Assembly: GCF_000002985.6 (NCBI RefSeq)
Contig: NC_003280.10
Span: forward strand, 1,798,001 to 1,862,000
Length of the DNA stretch: 64,000 bases
Reading direction: 5' to 3'
Source of the DNA: Caenorhabditis elegans
Taxonomy: Eukaryota > Nematoda > Chromadorea > Rhabditida > Rhabditidae
Positions 13,674 through 64,000 of the stretch are shown here, in pieces. Position numbers and translations under genes: made by a program. A model generated the notes under the pieces. That model had not been told where the DNA came from and made no database searches. It saw only the letters and a program-made list of their open reading frames with translations. Positions within the stretch are counted from its first letter, which is position 1; each line of letters begins with the position of its first letter.

Positions 13674-15429
13674 TTTTTAACTGCCAGGAAAGACTGAGCT
13701 GGCTGGGTGGGAGAGAAGAAGGACTGGCTGGGTGGCAGCTGTTGACCTGGTGTAGGGAAACTAAAGTGTAACTACTTCCATTGTTTTATAGTGGAAGTGA
13801 GACCAGGACGGAAAAAATCTGTTAAATTTTCTACCCAAAACCCTTTTTGAAATCCCGGGATTCAATTTTGAAATTTGTTTTAGGCAGTGTGTTTTGTACA
13901 AGGTTTTCGAATAGCTGAACTGTTTTCCTAGAAGATTTTGAAATAAAACCTGAATGCTAAACTGGTCCTGCAACTTTAAAATCCATAATTTTGAAACAAC
14001 TTACGATTTATAGTTATTTATTGAGATAAGATTATTGAGCAATAGTTCAAAAAAAACATTTCAGTTCAACGAGTTTTTTAGACACATGAAAATTAAAAAA
14101 AAATCAACAAGGTTCAGGTACAACTTTCTTAACATTTAAAGGATCCTCTTTCTTTTTCGGAACAGTTTCCACATAGTCCCATCTTCCAGACTTCTCATCC
14201 CAACTGCAAACTCCGTACCGTTCTTCTCCACTGATCGGGTCCTCCTCCCAGAAGGCAAGTTTTTCGGAGTTATAAGCTATACAAGCTTGGCCAAGTATCA
14301 AAATTGACGCGATATTAATAACCGGGCAGTAGGATAGAAGTGAATTGAAAAATGTACGAGGCGTCAATTTTTAATAGCAACGATGAATGTAGAAGGCCTC
14401 GGCGATCAGGAAGAACAAAATTATGAACAATATCTGAAGTTTGGTGGGTTTGGTGGTGTCTAATACATTGTAGTAGATTGAGGAGTTTGAGATTCTTTCA
14501 GCAATTCCTATAGGGAAATATAATACCAGTGATGTGACTGCGGTGATGGTAATGATCTGAAAAATGATTATCGAATGGAAAGTGAAAAAAAATATTAATA
14601 GGTAGATCAACTCACATTAATCCAACTGCTGTAAACGTCAATTGTCATTTTTACAGAAAGCATCAGATTCAAGAAAATGAAAACAACCGCCAACATGTAC
14701 CAGTAGACAAGAGGCAAATACTCTTTTACTACCTCATCTTTTACTACGTTGCTCTTTTACTACGGTTTACTCTTTTACTACGGCCGTATCTTTTACTACG
14801 TTTTCCAATTTCGATTTTTTACTACGAAATGTATCTTTTACTACGGTCGTTTTTTTTACTACGGTTTCCGAATTTGATTTTTTACTACGAATCGTATCTT
14901 TTACTACGGCCGTTTTTTTTACTACAATGGCAGGTTGGATTTATTACTACGTTTTGTATCTTTTACTACGATTAACGATTTTTACTACCTAATGAAAAGA
15001 AGAATATCAGAAGTTGGAATTTGAAAGTTACCTTGTAGCAGATTTTAGGTATAATTACAATTTCATTCTGAAATCAACATGAAAGTTTCATAGCTGTGTT
15101 CTTTCTCCAACTTTTGAAATATACTACTGTCTGAGCGGTTTTTAACTGAATCCTACGATATCATAACGGGAAAATGAAATTTATGAAAATTTTCCAAACA
15201 AAACTATAAATTAAGCACTAATCAGTTATTGTAGAAAAATTCTAAATCTGTCGTTTTTGAAAACATTCATGTCAACTTTGTGATTTGGCATAATATTAAG
15301 AAACTCGACAAGTAGGGCTCTATATCCACATATTTTTTCGAGCAGAGGGAATGTGAAAAATTGATCAATCGCAAACTTGTTAGCTCAAGATAAGGAACGC
15401 TTTTCCCGTGCAAACTATTTGAAAAAAAA

Positions 15430-17224: not shown

Positions 17225-18329
17225 TTTTTTTTCAAATAGTTTGCACGGGAAAAGCGTTCCTTATCTTGAGCTAACAAGTTTGCGATTGATCAATTTTTCA
17301 CATTCCCTCTGCTCGAAAAAATATGTGGATATAGAGCCCTACTTGTCGAGTTTCTTAATATTATGCCAAATCACAAAGTTGACATGAATGTTTTCAAAAA
17401 CGACAGATTTAGAATTTTTCTACAATAACTGATTAGTGCTTAATTTATAGTTTTGTTTGGAAAATTTTCATAAATTTCATTTTCCCGTTATGATATCGTA
17501 GGATTCAGTTAAAAACCGCTCAGACAGTAGTATATTTCAAAAGTTGGAGAAAGAACACAGCTATGAAACTTTCATGTTGATTTCAGAATGAAATTGTAAT
17601 TATACCTAAAATCTGCTACAAGGTAACTTTCAAATTCCAACTTCTGATATTCTTCTTTTCATTAGGTAGTAAAAATCGTTAATCGTAGTAAAAGATACAA
17701 AACGTAGTAATAAATCCAACCTGCCATTGTAGTAAAAAAAACGGCCGTAGTAAAAGATACGATTCGTAGTAAAAAATCAAATTCGGAAACCGTAGTAAAA
17801 AAAACGACCGTAGTAAAAGATACATTTCGTAGTAAAAAATCGAAATTGGAAAACGTAGTAAAAAATACGGCCGTAGTAAAAGAGTAAACCGTAGTAAAAG
17901 AGCAACGTAGTAAAAGATGAGGTAGTAAAAGAGTATTTGCCTAGACAAGATAGCTTTCAATAGTATGCCGCTTTTTTGAAAATGCCTTTCGAAAGAATAA
18001 CAAACAAAGAGAAATCAACCACCCGTACACTGCGGCCAATCTTTTCAGACTAGAAGTGAATTTGGCATCGTCATAGTAGAGAAATATGAGATGAAGTCAG
18101 CAAGTGCAGCCAAAAATTTCAGCAACGAGAATCAAGTGGTGAAGGTAGTAGTGAAACGGAATAGTAGGCCTCTTTTTGGAGGATATTGTGAGATTTTTGG
18201 ATGGCGCAAGTTTTATAGCAACCATTGGAAGAGGTGAATGACTGGGTGGGAGAGAAAAGAAACTGGGTGTTTGGCGGGCAGCTGGGCAGCTGTTGACCTA
18301 AACTAAAGTGTAAATGTCCCCATTGAATA

Positions 18330-49097: not shown

Positions 49098-50154
49098 TCA
49101 CAATTTTCTTGAGCAAGCACAACAGCAATCATCGCAAAGTGGAGAATTGTCCAGATTAGCAACCAAGTAGAAGTTTTGACTTCTTGCATCCACCGAAGCC
49201 GATACTTCAATTCCGTCGTTGCGAAGAAATTCGAAGCTATCAATCGAAAAGCCATCTTCGTAGAATGTCAAAGAGTGAGACGTTTGGTACTTGATACCTT
49301 TCAGCAAGACCTCTTTGTAGTCCTCTTTGTTGTCCCCTGCCAATGCAATATGAGCTTCTTCCAGTCTAGGATTTGACCCATTGATGAAATGTTTGATAAA
49401 TAGATTCAAATCGGATAAAGTGAATGGGTGCTCGATTTTCAGTTCGTTGGCGTTGCATGAGAGCAGATCGTCAAGTCCGATGGCACATCCTTCAGTAAGC
49501 TCCAGGCGATTCAAGTTCTCGGAACACATAGCTCTGAACTGCTCACCAAGGAGAGCTCTGTCGGCAATGTTGATACTCATGGCGTCACGGTAGTAGAGAT
49601 CGAACATCTTTGGGTTGTTCTCTCCCATCACGATCCTCCACAGCTTGATTCCTTTCAGCTCGTCGCAGATCGCAAATTCATCCATAACAAACAACTGGTC
49701 AATTTCCTGAAGATCCAGAGCGACGAGCAAATTCTCAACGCAACGTCTCATCGAAAAGCTTTCATTGAGCAATGTCCAATTCGTAAAGTGCTCCTCAATG
49801 TCGTCTGAAGGAGGGCTGAACAAGAACCGGCAGCATCCATTGGCAGACCAGACAATTATAGCCATCAGGTGATCCAGAACTACGCGCACATTTCCTGATT
49901 CGATGTTCAGAAGCTTTCCGGATGTTGGAGAGATCAGGCAGAAGTTCATTCTGAAAATGAGTATTTTAGTAAGCATAGAAAATAACTCAAAGTTAAACTC
50001 ACAAATCCGAGAACTCAAAATTCTGAAGAGTGGCACGAAGGGCCTTCGGTGGAAGACGGAGGATGGGGAACGGCGGAGAGGAGACGGAGAAAGAAGTTGG
50101 AGGTTGAATATTCAAAGTGCTGACGGAATTTGGCGAGATGAGTGAGAAGCTCAT
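49098..50154 (-). CDS. F-box/FBA_2 protein with scrambled N-terminus (fbxb-type)
   Basis: Exons 50154-50003 and 49950-49098 give 334 residues. The C-terminal 280 residues are a normal FBA_2-type region, with LLNESFSMRRCVENLLVALD, FDLYYRDAMSINIADRALLG and LNLFIKHFINGSNPRLEEAH. Exon 1 is odd: it begins MSFSLISPNSVSTLNIQ, which is the start of exon 2 of a sister gene, and then runs directly into the F-box exon (PFPILRLPPKALRATLQNF) without its ATG. Further upstream (50210-50155) are the first eight codons of a regular F-box exon cut off into intron-end sequence. The gene is thus made of 1.5 copies, joined in frame. Start at 50154 is inferred because the acceptor TTTCAG directly precedes it. Confidence 0.7.
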
Positions 50155-51441: not shown

Positions 51442-52398
51442 TTAAGTACAACTGCAATGATGACTGAATGAGTATGTTGTTAAATAGAACCAGCGACGTA
51501 TTGGATCCACAAATACTATCACGTTGGTTCTATCGTTTTGTTGAAACTCCAAACCATTGCTCGAACTGCCATCTGCATAAATTCTGGAAAAGTTAGACGT
51601 CCGGTAGTTGATACCGTTTAGCAAAACTTTTTCGTAGTTCTCAAAAGTTCCCTCTTCCATAGCAATATTCATTTCCTTTAAGCTCGGATTTGACCCGTTG
51701 ATGAAATGTCTCAGAAACAGATTCAAATTGGAAAAGGAGAATGGGCGAGCAATGTTGGTTTTGATAGCATTGCTGGCTATTATATCGTCAAGTCCAATGA
51801 CACATTCTGCGAGAAACTCCAGGCAGTCCAAGTTCTCTGAGAACAGAGCCCTGGACTGCTCGCCGAAGATAGCTCTATCGGCAATACTGATTTCCTTGGC
51901 GTCCCGGTAGTACAGATCGAACATCTTTAGGTTTTTCACGTTCATCGTAATCATTTTGAATTTGAATCCCTTCAGTTCGTCGCAGTCAACATGCTCCTTG
52001 GAAATAACCAACTTTTCAACTTCCTGAAGATCCAAGGCGACCAACAAATTCTCAACGCACTTTTTCACCGAGAAGCTTTCATTAAGCCATCTACACTGTG
52101 GAAAGACCTTGATCCTGTCAATTTGATCCGATGGAGGATTCAAATAAAAAATGACAAAACCGGCAACTATAGTTATAACATTGTCCAGAATCACGTACAC
52201 AGATGCTGCTCCGGTGTTCAGAGGTCTTACGGATGTTGGTGAGATCAGGGAGAAACTCATTCTGAAAGTTAAAATTTCTTGTATTGTTAGAACAAATTAA
52301 CAAGGTTGAACTCACAAATCCACAAAATCAAAAGTTTGTAGAGTAGCATGAAGGGCCTTCGATGGAAGACGGAGGATGGGGAAAGACGGAGCAGACAT
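51442..52398 (-). CDS. F-box/FBA_2 protein (fbxb-type)
   Basis: Exons 52398-52316 and 52261-51442, 300 residues, with clean GTGAGT and TTTCAG sites. Exon 1 is the first half of the F-box, FPILRLPSKALHATLQTFDF. Exon 2 continues MSFSLISPTSVRPLN, then the FBA_2 landmarks: LNESFSVKKCVENLLVALDL, FDLYYRDAKEISIADRAIFG and LNLFLRHFINGSNPSLKEM. The expected role is substrate choice for an SCF-type ubiquitin ligase. A CCCAG acceptor lies two bases before the ATG, suggesting SL trans-splicing, and the 80 bp upstream are conserved with the genes at 50.2 and 56.4 kb. It is intact and closely related to the gene at 56394-57327, which is on the opposite strand. Confidence 0.9.
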
Positions 52399-56393: not shown

Positions 56394-57327
56394 ATGTCTT
56401 CTCCATCTTTCCCCGTCCTTCGCCTACCATCGAAGGCCCTTCGTGCTACCCTTCAAAATTTTGCAATTATCGACTTGTAAGTTGTATTTTATTTCTACTA
56501 TGATACATTAAAAGATCATTTTCAGATTAAGTTTCTCACTTGTCTCACCAAATTCCGTCAGATCATTGAATATCCGAGCAGCAAATGTGAGCGTAACACT
56601 CGATTTTATAGAAATCTTTCTTGTAGAGGCTGCCGGCACACACTCTATGTTCTATATAAAACCGAAATCACATCAAAATCGGGAATTTCCAATTCATCCA
56701 GTATGCCGATGGCTTAATCGAAATTTTTCAATAGAAAAAATTATCAAGAATTTTCTCGTTGCCTTGAATCTTCTGGAAGTGAAACAGTTACGCGTTTCTA
56801 AAGAAGACGCAACCTGTGGCAAACTGACAGGAATCAAATTTAAACACGTTACAATGGTAGAGAGAAACCGTCCGATCTTTGATCGTTTTTATCGTGACTC
56901 CGATAGTCTCACCCTTTACGACCGAGCTCTTCTCGGTGAGCAAACTAGAGCCATCTTCTCCGAAAACGTGAACAGCCTTGTGTTAATTCCTTCGTTTGTC
57001 GTGGATTTCAACGATCTGTTGGCGATTAATGCTACTAAAGTGGACATCGGTCGGTCATTCACATTATCCAACTTGAATCTGTTTCTCAGACATTTTATCA
57101 ATGGATCAAATCCAAGGCTGAAGGAAATTCATGTTTCATTAAAAGGAAACAACCTCGAGGACTTTAAGACCACTCTGCTAAACAGTATCAAATATTGGAC
57201 GTCTTCCATATCCAAAACTTACGAAGATGGTCGATCAATTGACGGGTTAGGATTTCTACGGATCGATGGAGTCGAAGTGACCATTTTTGTGGATCCGATT
57301 AGACACAGCTATGAACTAACTTGTTGA
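56394..57327 (+). CDS. F-box/FBA_2 protein (fbxb-type)
   Basis: Exons 56394-56476 and 56526-57327 give 294 residues. F-box start FPVLRLPSKALRATLQNFAI, then LSFSLVSPNSVRSLNIRA. FBA_2 landmarks are LNRNFSIEKIIKNFLVALNL, FDRFYRDSDSLTLYDRALLG and LNLFLRHFINGSNPRLKEIH. It is intact, with GTAAGT and TTTTCAG splice sites and AATAAA after the stop. A CTACAG acceptor lies two bases before the ATG. The upstream 80 bp, containing ATCGATTACCTAGCC and CCTCATTCATTATTCATT, match the two minus-strand relatives at 50 and 52 kb, so the three genes probably share regulation. It is inverted relative to them. Expected function: SCF ubiquitin-ligase substrate adaptor. Confidence 0.9.
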
Positions 57328-57399: not shown

Positions 57400-57853
57400 C
57401 CTTTTGCGGAGCGGTAGCTCCAGAAAACGGCCCAAAATAAACACCCTGAAAACCCAAATAAATAACAGAACAGGTATGTGCTAAGTCATCATTTATCTCC
57501 GTGTTGCTGATTAGTCAATCAGCAACACAAATCACACAAAGGCCAATTATCAAGGGACGGGATGAATCAATTAACCAAAACCAAAACAACAATTAAAAGA
57601 ACTCCAAAGCGACAACCATCAGAACTCCGTGTCGACCGCGTCGACCGCCGGCGGCGTTTCCTTCGTGGGTGGTAAGATGTGCAGGTGGAGTACGGTAGAT
57701 GGCGGCAATTCAAACGGTCCCGGGGCGTCTCGTGGTGTGAAGGCGATGAAGATAACGACTTTTAACAGAGATAATTGTGTAATTAAACGGGAAAAGATAC
57801 AAATGTGAAAGTCGTGAAGAAGGGAATATTTATTATTCACTGAGTTCGCGACA
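57400..57853 (-). repeat. 3' LTR start (minus strand) with polypurine tract
   Basis: On the minus strand the polypurine tract GGGGCCGGGAG (57864-57854) is followed at once by TGTCGCGAACTCAGTGAATA, with AATAAATA inside, as expected for the start of a 3' LTR with its poly-A signal. The far end is not defined and no second LTR is visible in the window, so the lower limit is a guess. Confidence 0.5.
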
Positions 57854-58372: not shown

Positions 58373-59797
58373 CTAATGAGACGAGCTCGACTCACTATCG
58401 TATCCAGAGTTTCCATGACCAAATTCTTCCGGGAGGTCACCCTCGTTCCGAAACCCATTTTCTGAGGTATCATCACCATCCGTCCACTCCTCAACTTCGT
58501 TTGCCTCGTCTTCCAGATCAAAATTCTTTAGACCTTTCTTTTCATCTCTATACTCATTGATGGCCATTTTGGCATTGATCTTTCTATCAATCCATCTTTC
58601 CACTTTGTGAAATTCACCATTGAACTTGGAGCTCTGAGTCTTGATGAGCACGTCTTCTGCAATAGAGGATGGCAATTTCCCAATAATCGATTGATAAATC
58701 GATGGAGTATCAACGTTCAGTCCACGATTTTTCATGTCATACACCAGAGATGTAATAATTCCAATGTCAAGTTTCATCTGATCATAGTTTTCCTGGTCAA
58801 TTTTGGCGTTTCTAAATCTCTTTTCAATTTCATCCAATGGTCGAGCATTCGACAAAAAGTTATGATCCAGAATTTTCCAAGCAACCTTGTAGTTGCCACT
58901 GGTGATTTGCAGTCCACTCAATAGCGACTGAGCTCTTCCCGTGACACAGCTTTTCAATTGGATCAACTTCGACTTCTTTGAAAGTTCTGGATTTTTTCCG
59001 TATCCCTCCATGAAAATGATCTTCCATTCCTCATACTCAAGCTTGTTTACACCGTCGAATTTCTTTGGTTCTTGGAGCTTCATCTTCAGATAACGCTTTT
59101 GTGTACGCTCCTGTTGGGCAGTTGTCGACGTTTTCAATAGTTCCGAACTGGATGTATCACTTCTAACACTATCTTTCAATACAACAACGCTACCATCGCT
59201 GTAGCTTTCCATCGCATCTGAGTCATCACTACTGTACTTTGTTTCAGCGTATCTCTTTTTCTTATTACCATAACATGGCTTCTTGTTGCTGGCTTCAAAA
59301 ACGTCCAATCTTGTTTCAAGAGCTTTTAAGCTATCCAAAATCAGTTTCATGTTCTGTTCATTTGGATTCACAAGAATCTTTGCTTGAGAACCTTCCTTCT
59401 TGCTTTCAATCGGAGATTCTGGCAATGAATCAATGATACCTTCTAGCTCAGTTCTCATGTAACCAAGTCTTTTGGCAAGTTTAACAAACTCTTTTTGAGC
59501 TGCGTGTTCTTGCAAACTCTTAGTGTTCCGAGTCACCAACTCCAGATTTGCCGATATTTCAGCGTTTTTCCGGATCATCTTTGTGATCCAATCATCAAGA
59601 TTCTCTAGAATCTTCAAGATCCCAACAACGTCGACGTGATTCTTGAGAATCTCGTCTCGTTTCAGTTCCGGTTGGATAATTCCAACTTTAACGTCAATCA
59701 GTATCTCCTGGGAGACCTTCAAAACTTCATTTGCAGTGTTTCCCCACTGATCAATTTGCTGTTTTAGCGGCACCATTGCCGCATTCACCTTCGCCAT
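58373..59797 (-). CDS. Pao/BEL-type gag-like protein (DUF1759)
   Basis: 474 residues from ATG 59797. Residues 1-170 are helical and coiled-coil-like (QQIDQWGNTANEVLKVSQEI, LAKRLGYMRTELEGIIDSL). After a Ser/Asp-rich hinge comes a DUF1759-type region, typical of Pao/BEL retrotransposon gag: MKLQEPKKFDGVNKLEYEEW, LIQLKSCVTGRAQSLLSGL, then SIIGKLPSSIAEDVLIKTQS. The end is acidic with no zinc knuckle. No protease, reverse transcriptase or integrase follows; 500 bp downstream a polypurine tract and LTR begin. The upstream sequence has a TTTCAG 27 bases before the ATG. It is either an internally deleted element or a gag-derived host gene. An overlapping frame (58521-57857) is open and basic, perhaps the remnant of the next region. 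Confidence 0.75.
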   Translation of the reverse strand: MAKVNAAMVPLKQQIDQWGNTANEVLKVSQEILIDVKVGIIQPELKRDEILKNHVDVVGILKILENLDDWITKMIRKNAEISANLELVTRNTKSLQEHAAQKEFVKLAKRLGYMRTELEGIIDSLPESPIESKKEGSQAKILVNPNEQNMKLILDSLKALETRLDVFEASNKKPCYGNKKKRYAETKYSSDDSDAMESYSDGSVVVLKDSVRSDTSSSELLKTSTTAQQERTQKRYLKMKLQEPKKFDGVNKLEYEEWKIIFMEGYGKNPELSKKSKLIQLKSCVTGRAQSLLSGLQITSGNYKVAWKILDHNFLSNARPLDEIEKRFRNAKIDQENYDQMKLDIGIITSLVYDMKNRGLNVDTPSIYQSIIGKLPSSIAEDVLIKTQSSKFNGEFHKVERWIDRKINAKMAINEYRDEKKGLKNFDLEDEANEVEEWTDGDDTSENGFRNEGDLPEEFGHGNSGYDSESSSSH

Positions 59798-60648
59798 AAT
59801 ACCGTTCGAGTCGATTGATAGTTCTGAAATACAAAATGATAATTATCTTGAACCACCTTGGGCAAAAAATTATCACGATAAACCAAGAAACAAAATTGCA
59901 AAGAAAATAACTTGAAAATAAAATATGCGAAAACTCTAATGAATTCCAAGATTACTGCAGTCTCTCGAAAACCATCATGATATTCCAGTTGGTCTGATAA
60001 GCGTAGATCTGGCCGGATACTACAGCCAACAGGTCCTACTGTGAGTACGTGCAACTTTCAATTCAATTCAATCCTTTCTCATTTGCTCTTAACTCCGATT
60101 CAGAAACGACCTGGTCTTGTCTCAATAGAATATCATCCATCTTGACGGCTTTGGTTTCTTATCTGATTTGCTGGACCATTTCAGATATTCCAGTTTCCAT
60201 TTCACCCACACTAACTTTTGAGTTAGACTCTTTCCGTTCTTCTGGATTGTTTCACATTTCCAGTTCCAAGTTCCTCATCGGGTTTGCTGAGTTCCCGTTC
60301 AGAAACGTCTCAGAATTTCCCAGGTGCTATGATTAAGCCCTAATCCGCAGAAAGGGGGATCCTCTTAATCTAGCTATTCCACATCCCAATTATGGGTCCC
60401 ATGGTAACCATTGAACGTAGTTCCACCTTCTATTTTGTTCCTTTCCTTCATTTACTACTTTCTCTGAAATCTCATATCCGCCCTTTTTGTTTTTTGCACA
60501 AACAACAAAAAAAAAAAACTTCAAATGAGACTTGGTTATCCAAATTTCTTTGAATTTCCAATCACCATTCCATGTGCGTTCCATAAACATACACTATACA
60601 ACTAAGGTCAGCTCATTTCATCTGAATACAGCTCCTAGTTAATTTTCC
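59798..60648. other. Upstream region of gag ORF, no gene seen
   Basis: No LTR copy corresponding to 57400-57853 is recognisable. Plus-strand open frames are low in information. A few degenerate hairpin-unit-like pieces (CTCTTTCCGTTCTTCTGG, CAGAAACG) precede the array. Confidence 0.4.
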
Positions 60649-61256
60649 AATAAGACTCTCAGTAAATATCGAGAGAATTTCCAATGTTTCCAACAAAATC
60701 GATTTCCAGTTCCAATAAGACTCTCAGTAAGTATCGAGAGAATGCTCTACATTCACTTTGAATTTCTTTTCCAATTTCAATAAGACTCTCAGTAAGTATC
60801 GAGAGAATTCCACATTCACTTTGAATGCCCGTTCCAATTTCAGTAAAACTCTCTATAAGTATCGAGAGAATGTTCCAAAGAATTCAATTCCAATTTTCAA
60901 TAAGACTCCCAGTAGGTATCGAGAGAATATTACACATTCATTTTGAATGCCCATTCCAATTTCAATAAGACTCTCAGTAAGTATCGAGAGAATTTGTCAC
61001 AGCTACACAAGAATGCAAGCTTAATTTCCAGTAAGACTTCCAGTTAACTTTGGAAGAATTTCCTCAATTACTCTTTGGAGTAAGTTCCAACTTCAATAAG
61101 ACTCCCTGTAAGTATCGGGAGAATTTGTCCATGTTCCTCTGTATCCTCTTTTTCATTTACCATAAAACTTTCAGTAAATATCGAAAGAGTTTCCATGTTA
61201 CTTTATACCATCTATGTTCCATTACCATAAGACTTTCAGTAAATATCGAAAGAATT
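60649..61256 (+). repeat. 65-bp tandem array with co-varying hairpins, block 1
   Basis: Ten units start at about 60649, 60714, 60779, 60842, 60899, 60964, 61030, 61095, 61161 and 61227; spacing is 57-66, mostly 65-66. Each has the core AAGACTCTCAGTAAGTATCG plus AGAGAAT. The 5-bp stem changes in step on both sides: CTCTC/GAGAG, CTTCC/GGAAG, CTCCC/GGGAG, CTTTC/GAAAG, always with a 10-base loop. Only the unit at 60899 has a mismatch. The spacers are AT-rich and less conserved. The strand is given by the GTAAGTATC loop, which looks like a splice donor. Confidence 0.9.
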
Positions 61257-61284
61257 TCATAAGCTTATGCTTGTACTCAGCTTC

Positions 61285-61917
61285 ATTTTCCCAATTTTCC
61301 AGTTTTTCCAGTTTTTCCAGTTTTTCAATTCCCAGGTTTCCAATTCTAGTTTTTCCAGTTTCTCCAGTTTTTCAATTCCCAGATTTCCAGTTCCAGTTTT
61401 CCCAGTTTTCCAAGTTTTCCAATTTCCAGTTTTCCAGTTTTGGATCTCCAGCTTTTCAGTTTCCAGTTTTCTGGTTTTCCAAATTTTCTGTTCCAGATTT
61501 CCAGTTTGTCATTTTTTTTTCAGTTCCAGATTCCAGTTTCCTAGGTTTCCTAGATTCCGATTTCCAGATTTTCCAGGTTTCCAGTTTCTAAGTTCCCAGT
61601 TTTCCAGTTCCAGTTTCCAGTTATCTGGTTTTCCAGTTTCCCAGTTTTTACAGGTTTCAGTGTTCCAGGTTTCCAATTTTCCAATTTCCAGCCAACCAGT
61701 TTTTCAGTTCCAGATTTCTAGCTTTCCAAATTTTCCAATTCCAGATTCCAGCTTGCCAGTTTTCAGGTCTCTAGTTTTCCATTTTCCAGTTCCAATTTCC
61801 AGATTTCCAGATTTCCACTAATCCAGTTCCACAGATCCTCTTTCCCAGTTCCAGTTTTCCTAGCTTTTCAGATTTCCCAGTTCCCAGTTCCAGTTCCAGT
61901 ACCAGTTTCCAGTTTTC
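61285..61917 (+). repeat. TTTTTCCAG-rich low-complexity block
   Basis: About 630 bp of degenerate (TTT)TTCCAG units, interrupting the hairpin array. Long open frames cross it only because stop codons are rare in such sequence. Each TTTCCAG resembles a 3' splice site. Confidence 0.9.
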
Positions 61918-62015
61918 CATAAGACTCCCATTAAGTATCGGGAGAATTTTTTCAAATCACTCATAGGAATTATACCTCATATTCAGTATGACTCCCAGTA
62001 AATTTCGGGAGAATG
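61918..62015 (+). repeat. 65-bp tandem array with hairpins, block 2
   Basis: Two more units, at 61919 and 61985 (66 apart), both with the CTCCC/GGGAG stem and a 10-base loop (ATTAAGTATC, AGTAAATTTC). Confidence 0.85.
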
Positions 62016-62700
62016 GCCCGATGTACTGTAGCATATGAACACACTACCTAACTATTTTTTTTCTAGGTTTCATTCCAATTTCAGAATAAGTTCTTCCTTC
62101 GACATCTGATCTCAATTTGTCGAATTTCAACGTTTTCCCGATCTAGAATTCGATTTTCGTATTCTAGAATTTGGCTCCATATTTCAATTTTTGACTCAAA
62201 TATTCCATTTATGGCCGTATTCCAACACTCAACATGTCAAGCCATAGTTTCAAATTCATTGATAATTGTATTCCTTTTCCTAGGGACACTTCACAATTTC
62301 ATATTCGAAAAATTATTTTTGTTCCGAAATCCAGTGACAATTCCTCTCAAAAAATTTCCAAAATATCCAATTTCTAGTGATTCTTTTTTAGAATAACACT
62401 CCCAATTTCCATTTTCCTGCTATTTCCCATGCTTGACATTCCATCTTACTTTCTGAAAGCATTCTAAGTTCAAGATCCAGACACACTGAGCAACAATTTT
62501 GTTCCAATAATCATTGAAAATTTATTTCAAAGTTTCCTTCCAATCAAACATTTGATCCCATATTATGCTTCCTACTTCTGAGGAAGTCATTCCATTTCAT
62601 GTATTTCTCAATACAAAACACTCGATTCATAAATTAATTTATTTAAATAAATTAATTTTTATTGAAGGCACATTTTTTATTTAGAAATATTTAAATTCTT
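62016..62700. other. Intergenic, AT-rich, with 28-bp palindrome
   Basis: No gene is supported. A perfect palindrome AAATTAATTTATTT/AAATAAATTAATTT lies near 62632-62660. Confidence 0.5.
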
Positions 62701-63081
62701 CGTTTATCCCGGAGTCTTGTGATTCGCTGGCGAATTTTCCCGATCCGACTGTGCTCCAATTTCTTTCCGATTTGTGAAGTCTTCTTGCCTGTTCTGACTC
62801 GTTGCTGGACCACACCGTCTGAAAATTATCGATTCAATAATGATAATATTCCATTAATTTTCAGGATTATATCCGCAATTTTTCATTAAAAATTGTTTAT
62901 TTTCCGTCAAAATTTCTCTCTGTCGAAGTGAGAATTGTCTTTTAAATTTAAAGACAAGATTTCTTTTTATTTTCATAATTTTCCGAATTTTTTAAAACTT
63001 TTTTTAAATTAATACCTCGGAATTCTTTGCTTCCGTCGGTTGGACCTTCTCTGGTTCTCCGATTTCCTGATCCTTTCCATA
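62687..63081 (-). CDS. Possible last exons of an unknown basic/acidic protein
   Basis: Minus-strand frame ending GKFASESQDSGINEEFKYF (62687), joined through a TTTTCAG acceptor (62820) and a GTATTA donor (63015) to EPEKVQPTEAKNSE upstream. The splice pair is plausible and an AATAAA follows the stop, but I find no start and no family. Frames further upstream, to 63386, are open in pieces. Confidence 0.3.
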
Positions 63082-63747
63082 CGATGTCTTTTCAGGCCAG
63101 CATCTGGTCCTTTTCGTCCTTTTTCTCTGCTTTTATGGAGAATTTCGTCGCCAAATCCGTGGAATTTCCCTTTTTCCGTCGTTCATCCAATATCAGCCGA
63201 GATTTTCGCCGGAAAATCCTTTGTTCTTCTTTGAGGCTTCCATTGGAACATTTCTGTGTTTATTGATTTCTCCAGCGATTCCTGTAGTTCCGCAGCTTGG
63301 CCGGTCCGTTTCTCGAATTTTTCGTCGCTCTTTGGCTGAAAACACTTGATTTCAAGGTTAATCGGCGGAAAAACGACAATTTTCAACGGAAATTACGATT
63401 TGTGAAGGAATTATCGATTCAATCACATCAAAAACGCATCAATTCAACTTAAATTGAAAGAAAACATCTGAAATTGACAAAGATTTCTTCAAAAATGCCA
63501 ATTTAAATTCATTCTTGCCGGCTGATGGAAAAGACCGCATATTCTCTGCGTCTCCCACTTTTGTGTGCTCTCTCACCACTTTTTTGCGGTGGAGCGCACA
63601 TTCTCTTCCTGTGTCTCTTCTAAAAAATGGAATCTCTCGTGTTTTCCAGATTTTAATAAGAATTTGGATCTCAAAACCGCTATTTTAACGGAATTTTGAG
63701 CATTTTCCTGGACGAAATGAAAATTCGGGCATAGATTACCCTATAAT
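63082..63747. other. No supported gene
   Basis: Short charged minus-strand frames (63386-63183) without start, family or convincing splice sites. The stretch 63530-63620 is a CTCTC/TGTGCTC-rich segment of the promoter type common in nematodes. Confidence 0.35.
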
Positions 63748-64000
63748 TTACATCACGGCACTGTTTTTTCCGATTTCCGCCTGTAAAAATGTCATTTTAC
63801 AGGTCGAAAGTATTTTCCGAAGATAACCCCGTCCCTTTTGAGGTTTCCAGTAATTTTTTCGCTCCATGAGCGTTTCCAAATGAATTTTTCCATTCAGAAG
63901 GATCCAAGTTGCCTTGTTTGGCTCGTAGCCGCCCAAGGTCTTTTTTCCAGGTGATTTCGCCTCTTCGGAGCATCATCCAGAAGAGGTCTTTTATTTTTGA
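63748..64000 (-). CDS. Partial exon of unknown gene at window edge
   Basis: From the right edge a minus-strand frame reads LFWMMLRRGEITWKKDLGRL, NLDPSEWKNSFG and up to SSENTFDL at 63785, where a GTAAAA donor-like sequence occurs. The other frame (MGGYEPNKATWILLNGKIHL) is also open. Which is real cannot be told without the neighbouring sequence. Confidence 0.3.

Follow-up and report, generated by a model that had tools for sequence, protein, structure and literature searches.

What keeps the arms of a repeated stem complementary in a tandem array of Caenorhabditis elegans? The array lies in the 64,000-nucleotide stretch of DNA analysed here (the window; chromosome II, 1,798,001-1,862,000), and a preliminary description based on its letters reported twelve units with four versions of a five-pair stem, the partner arm changing along with its mate in eleven of them. 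All of this was found again. The twelve units are located on the plus strand, follow the pattern CTYYC-N10-GRRAG and start 57-67 bp apart, the single exception being the gap between units 10 and 11. Units 1-10, in steps of 57-66 bp, span 60652-61256 and units 11-12 span 61921-62015, separated by 664 bp rich in TTTTCCAG. While the plus-strand arms form Watson-Crick pairs in 11 of the 12 units, the lone exception, unit 5 (60902-60929; CTCCC/GAGAG), has a C-A mismatch there and a U-G pair on the minus strand. The covariation originally described thus stands, with the odd unit pairing as a wobble on the opposite strand. The stem varies at two positions only, and all four combinations are present. 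Elsewhere in the window, two TTTTACTACG-type arrays of 63-bp repeats (14719-14970 and 17684-17935) are oppositely oriented, with about 2.7 kb between them.

Self-comparison extended past the window showed that the array is part of a minus-strand LTR retrotransposon. Because of this location, we rejected both a position within a host gene and a stand-alone satellite. The 3' LTR (57402-57853, minus strand) is 99.8% identical over 453 bp to its direct-repeat partner, the 5' LTR, which is found just beyond the window at window-equivalent positions 64065-64517 on the same strand. The element measures 7116 bp and is flanked on both sides by the 5-bp target-site duplication ATGCC (ends set by eye). 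In minus-strand reading, a primer-binding-site-like sequence follows the upstream LTR and a G-rich tract precedes the other LTR. The former, TGGTGCATCGAACC, immediately follows the 5' LTR in each of the three array-bearing copies of the element; this putative primer-binding site starts with TGG, as does the complement of the tRNA CCA end. An open frame at 58373-59842 (minus strand, 489 residues) holds the gag gene, with its ATG at 59797 and a DUF1759 match (PF03564, E 1.7e-9). A putative nematode-type 3' splice site, TATTTCAG, recognised from the sequence only, is located 26 nt upstream of this ATG (59824-59831, minus strand). The 5' leader, from the primer-binding site to gag, comprises about 4.2 kb of the minus strand (59825-64000, continuing to 64064 outside the window). 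The array therefore occupies the sense leader, upstream of gag. This setting had been missed by the preliminary description and changes the biology of the tandem array, which itself was correctly recognised. Genes related to one another were observed on both flanks of the retrotransposon, at 49098-50111 (minus), 51442-52296 (minus), 56512-57327 (plus) and, beyond the window, 64655-65565; the frames at 49098-50111 and 56512-57327 match the F-box-associated domain FBA_2, and the other two were called related by DNA similarity alone.

Two further array-bearing copies were found on chromosome V. The copy at 17.15 Mb is full-length (about 11.7 kb), about 69-81% identical to the window copy by blocks, and carries four units and the remnant of a fifth. 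Its pol matches the Pao peptidase (PF05380, E 9.8e-53), RVT_1 and Integrase_H2C2, its gag contains DUF1759, and matches to rve (E 9.2e-5) and Asp_protease_2 (E 8.3e-5) fell below their cut-offs. Judged from these domains, the family is BEL/Pao, since the full-length copy encodes a DUF1759 gag together with a pol that has Pao peptidase, reverse transcriptase and integrase zinc-binding matches. An equivalent putative 3' splice site, TTTTCAG, precedes its gag ATG by 24 nt. The gag frame of the window copy is shorter than that of the full-length copy, to which it is 71% identical over residues 184-479 and 54% over residues 14-147. A CCHC-type knuckle (CxxCxxxxHxxxxC) was seen by eye in the translated full-length gag frame and is absent from that of the window copy, which also misses about 4.7 kb of pol. 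The leader of the full-length copy contains an extra open frame of 222 residues (stretch L046, 6257-6925, minus strand) that gave no Pfam match and lies in a stretch unmatched in the window copy.

The copy at 20.18 Mb has seven units. Stops interrupt its gag, and it shows a gap where the window copy misses pol; it is 90-95% identical to the window copy in the main blocks and 78-80% in the blocks that cover the array. Target-site duplications of the three array-bearing copies, read by eye, are ATGCC, AGTGT and AGATA. On contig C4 we detected an LTR-bounded remnant (stretch L065, 15194001-15196800) with its own target-site duplication, ACAGA. Like the window copy it is arranged without pol; the leader is missing, and no primer-binding site was visible by eye. 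Since the primer-binding site is missing too, the leader was likely deleted after insertion. The window and C4 copies share the pol-deleted arrangement at separate sites and with different target-site duplications, which indicates from the sequences that the pol-less form of the element has moved.

The 12, 7 and 4 units of the window, 20.18 Mb and 17.15 Mb copies add up to 23, and their sense alignment is free of gaps. Read as minus-strand RNA, hairpins 1 (60656-60675), 2 (60721-60740), 3 (60786-60805) and 6 (60971-60990) have the stem CUCUCG/UGAGAG, hairpins 9 (61168-61187) and 10 (61233-61252) have CUUUCG/UGAAAG, and hairpins 11 (61925-61944) and 12 (61992-62011) have CUCCCG/UGGGAG. In hairpin 7 (61037-61056; CUUCCA/UGGAAG) the sixth pair is A-U, and in hairpins 4 (60849-60868; CUCUC/GAGAG) and 8 (61102-61121; CUCCC/GGGAG) it is G-A. 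Hairpin 5 (60906-60925; CUCUCG/UGGGAG) contains the U-G wobble. Counting this one U-G, the five-pair stem is kept in all 23 units (18 distinct sequences). The sixth pair hardly covaries: among the 18 distinct units it is G-U in 14, A-U in one and broken (G-A) in three. The eight-base loop reads AUAYUUAC in 13 of the 23 units, with near-variants in the remaining ones; its commonest forms are AUACUUAC (7 of 23) and AUAUUUAC (6 of 23). The hairpins are flanked by conserved AUUC on the 5' side and UCUUAUUG on the 3' side. Core, loop and flanks are common to the units, whereas the spacer sequence varies along the array. Hairpins 10 and 11 are separated by a low-complexity block (61285-61915, minus strand) of sense CUGGAAAA-type repeats, which is shorter in both chromosome V copies. 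On the plus strand this TTTTCCAG-type block looks like repeated 3' splice sites.

The covariation of the arms also holds once the phylogeny of the units is modelled. In the alignment, 97.2% of stem cells are paired versus 89.8% in shuffles, and 14 stem cells are double-changed versus 5.2; none of 500 shuffles reached either value. Two other measures of the same test did not discriminate (double-change pairs, 2 versus 1.6; further pair types, 4 versus 4.8). On a tree from which the stem columns were left out, three steps are needed in each column of the pair 13/28, all of them joint, and the pair 14/27 requires four steps, with three in column 14 and four in column 27. We then used a tree-preserving null, in which changes were placed at random on the tree, for 666 column pairs at least four positions apart. 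Under this null the two variable stem pairs rank first and second of all 666, with E values of 0.01 and 0.135 after average-product correction and of 0.2 and 0.955 with the uncorrected G-statistic. The joint probability that both variable pairs are fully paired is 0.003; over 60 bootstrap trees it has a median of 0.002 and a maximum of 0.011. Thus, the covariation is significant, although it concerns two of the five strict stem pairs and rests on few events, three to four parsimony steps per stem column. A compensatory change can also be seen directly. The flanks of unit 12 are alignable in all three copies, and its stem is CUCCC/GGGAG in two of them and CUUCC/GGAAG in the third, the 17.15 Mb copy (CUUCCG/UGGAAG with the sixth pair). 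This difference between orthologous units is a compensatory double change; across units 9-12, the stems of the window and 17.15 Mb copies differ in nothing else.

The two strands do not pair equally well. The sense strand pairs 105 of 108 cells versus 90 of 108 for the antisense strand, and the sixth pair, with 15 sense versus one antisense cell, supplies 14 of this difference of 15. The hairpins are weak when taken singly (-2.7 to -7.5 kcal/mol in their best form); of the 14 that were folded, most did not outperform shuffled sequences, whichever strand was used. Since the z-scores range from +0.08 to -1.99 for the sense strand versus +0.47 to -1.93 for the other, folding energy favours neither. 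Folded in isolation, unit II_2 and partly unit V17_12 preferred another pairing. We rejected a second hairpin in the inter-unit spacers, as their summed folding was not better than that of shuffles (p 0.09); folding was best in spacers 3 (p 0.065) and 5 (p 0.015).

Rates of change between copies were compared with strict spacer counts, in which the leader upstream of unit 12 was kept out of the spacers. Against the 17.15 Mb copy (units 9-12), differences amount to 9 of 124 positions in the cores, 8 of 68 in the spacers and 50 of 173 in the adjoining leader; against the 20.18 Mb copy they amount to 4 of 186, 7 of 138 and 25 of 268, respectively. The cores change more slowly than the leader beside them (17.15 Mb copy, p 3e-6; 20.18 Mb copy, p 0.002), but against the strict spacers the difference falls short of significance (p 0.30 and p 0.21, respectively), and the idea that the hairpin cores evolve slowly compared with their spacers was dropped. 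The array region as a whole is slow relative to its surroundings, and between copies its hairpins are not significantly slower than its spacers.

Can a mutational process account for the covarying arms? Duplication of units combined with template switching between arms could mimic covariation without selection. To the credit of this explanation, the units are duplicated, the events are few, the uncorrected G-statistic is weak, and the comparison between copies gave no significant difference in rate between cores and strict spacers. However, the tree-preserving joint probability of about 0.002-0.003 argues against it, and arm copying leaves unexplained why loop and flanks are common to the units. 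As a control for arm copying at other palindromes, we counted distinct changed pair sites in the other 5-bp stems of the element between the window copy and the chromosome V copies. Compared with the 17.15 Mb copy, 61 of 102 changed pairs were broken on one side, 27 became wobbles, eight were changed on both sides and still paired, and six were changed on both sides and unpaired. The corresponding numbers for the 20.18 Mb copy were 32, 13, two and one of 48. Other stems of the element thus mostly break when they change, which disfavours general template switching, the alternative that the preliminary description had itself put forward. The double-changed control pairs do keep pairing slightly above expectation (8 of 14 versus 5.4 expected, and 2 of 3 versus 1.3), and this small excess points toward copying. 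A direct comparison of the fates of stem changes in the array with those in the other stems (Fisher p 2e-7) was set aside as biased, because its cells do not represent independent events and the stems had been picked for their pairing. Taken together, we consider a purely mutational or genealogical origin improbable. We find it quite improbable, too, that the array acts at the DNA level, either as cruciforms or by binding a host protein to the leader, in the way that the Su(Hw) sites of gypsy do. Tandem units that share a core while their spacers vary would suit such an array, the folding energies favour neither strand, and a precedent exists in gypsy, whose 5' untranslated region has 12 sites (PMC2374998). 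Yet an array of protein sites does not need arms that change together, and the strands are not equivalent, with 90 versus 105 paired cells, chiefly owing to the sixth pair. Selection on the hairpin shape at the RNA level is thus moderately supported by the phylogeny-aware null, the double change in unit 12 and the better pairing of the minus strand. Of the two folded forms offered by the preliminary description, RNA or a DNA cruciform, this favours minus-strand RNA.

We searched the genome (100,286,401 bases in 7 contigs) for further units with a 28-base degenerate pattern, allowing up to three mismatches and using the reversed pattern as control. The pattern gave 72 matches versus 31 for the control. 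Twenty-three of the 72 were the units at the three loci (0-2 mismatches), three others had two mismatches and 46 had three. With the matches of 0-2 mismatches being mostly these 23 units, a hairpin family dispersed elsewhere in the genome was rejected. Four of the weak three-mismatch matches, on contig C1 (14686517-14687225, minus strand), recur in steps of about 200-240 bp with the core AGAACTTTCTAGAAATTTCGAAAAA and appear to form a separate tandem repeat. A model of the unit, run against 26 sequence stretches, recovered the 23 units from which it was built and a truncated part of unit 12 (stretch L039) but no further ones; the best other match scored 18.8 bits (E 0.21). This search took in short flanks (L059-L062) of four more distant gag loci, one each on contigs C1 and C5 and two on C6. 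On contig C6, the stretches searched (L057, L066) beside a related gag (37% identity) contained no such units. The distant gag relative on contig C1 (11444493-11444894, stretch L061; 29% identity) falls inside the chromosome I interval 11438000-11449000 that the consulted part of PMC4367959 gives as Cer16-2 in WS190 coordinates. The preliminary description knew of no named family with such a design; an Rfam search of both strands of the window with 4227 families returned no match above the gathering score.

Which function would select for such hairpins? The explanation we prefer, and hold tentatively, is that the leader of this BEL/Pao element carries the repeats as a row of short, cis-acting RNA hairpins, most likely bound by Gag for packaging. 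The gag mRNA would be made by splicing or trans-splicing at the putative 3' splice site before gag, which would strip the leader from it, and with the leader removed in this way the hairpins would mark full-length RNA only. On such unspliced retroelement RNA Gag is the obvious reader, which makes packaging the first choice and control of export or splicing the second; the packaging role is an inference. Gag would bind the hairpins in multiple copies through its CCHC knuckle and so select genomic RNA for particles. The letters of the stem could vary within pyrimidine and purine limits, while its shape, the near-fixed loop and the flanks would be kept for recognition. A near-fixed loop, fixed flanks, a stem of which only the shape matters and a variable copy number fit multivalent RNA recognition. 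Because they retain the hairpins, internally deleted copies without pol and knuckle could be carried in trans. Weighing on the other side are the weak single hairpins, the small number of changes behind the covariation, the similar rates of cores and spacers, the lack of units in the stretches searched at the C6 gag locus, and the C4 copy, which has a target-site duplication without a leader. The fuller proposal of a clustered array, in which Gag picks its RNA through 4-12 tandem hairpins in a leader removed by splicing and pol-deleted copies hitch-hike, is possible, if somewhat doubtful.

The same structural evidence, covariation and sense pairing, applies if the hairpins are selected as RNA for a role other than packaging, in the manner of a constitutive transport element: unspliced RNA might depend on them for export, stability or translation, or for control of its splicing. 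Such a role would also suit their position, as the leader probably serves as an intron or outron. However, no feature separates it from packaging, and the multiplicity of 4 to 12 hairpins suits either; we regard it as unlikely, though well worth keeping in mind. A further explanation takes the loop for a splice-site mimic, with the hairpins acting as U1-like decoys in sense or as shielded donors in antisense that capture or imitate splicing signals. The loop AUAYUUAC of 13 of the 23 units invites this thought, as AUACUUAC is complementary to GUAAGUAU, which resembles a 5' splice site, and the two commonest loops, AUACUUAC and AUAUUUAC, both have complements of this type. A U1 gene of the genome starts with AAACUUACCUGG (boundary of the Rfam match) and shares ACUUAC with the loop. 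Yet exact AUACUUAC occurs in just 7 of the 23 units, unit 7 (AAGUUAAC) does not fit, and the match to U1 is near but inexact. Exact mimicry of U1 was rejected since AAACUUACCUGG is not an exact match, and splice-site mimicry in general appears highly improbable.

Among known systems, as far as the portions of the sources consulted here describe them, the closest analogues in working to packaging hairpins would be retroviral psi (PMC5035971) and the multiple packaging signals of small RNA viruses (PMC3662417). Psi is structured leader RNA upstream of gag that is recognised by Gag (PMC5035971). The array shares this position, and a conserved RNA structure and recognition by Gag would be further likenesses. 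It differs from psi in its many near-identical hairpins in a row and in its probable restriction to unspliced RNA, whereas psi of RSV is present on spliced and unspliced RNA (PMC5035971). In MS2 and STNV, multiple stem-loops spread over the genomes are bound by capsid proteins (PMC3662417). Several hairpins with a recurring loop motif are common to these viruses and to the array, but here they are clustered in the leader of a retrotransposon rather than spread genome-wide in unrelated viruses. The closest analogue in layout is the insulator of Drosophila gypsy, an LTR element whose leader likewise repeats one unit about twelve times; the insulator comprises 12 Su(Hw) sites, each with a 12-bp DNA-binding consensus, and short AT-rich separators (PMC2374998). 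Unlike the present array with its covarying arms, gypsy carries a DNA array with a consensus that has none. By its Pao peptidase and DUF1759 gag, the host element belongs with the C. elegans BEL/Pao (Cer) elements (PMC1858694, PMC3118150). In the consulted portions of PMC1858694, PMC4367959 and PMC3118150, a hairpin array is not mentioned for C. elegans LTR or BEL/Pao elements, and the main text of PMC3118150 contains neither the whole words packaging, leader and untranslated nor the phrase tandem repeat. Our search of the open-access literature by titles and abstract starts found no paper that apparently describes cis-acting RNA signals of BEL/Pao elements. Within this literature, the hairpin-array design appears undescribed.

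Our results indicate that the array is a real feature, most probably selected as RNA, in a known kind of mobile element. If it is such a cis-acting signal, C. elegans, a standard laboratory species, offers natural variants of it with 4, 7 and 12 units and with four stem versions, and these variants could be used to test how BEL/Pao elements pick out their genomic RNA and what allows defective copies to spread.
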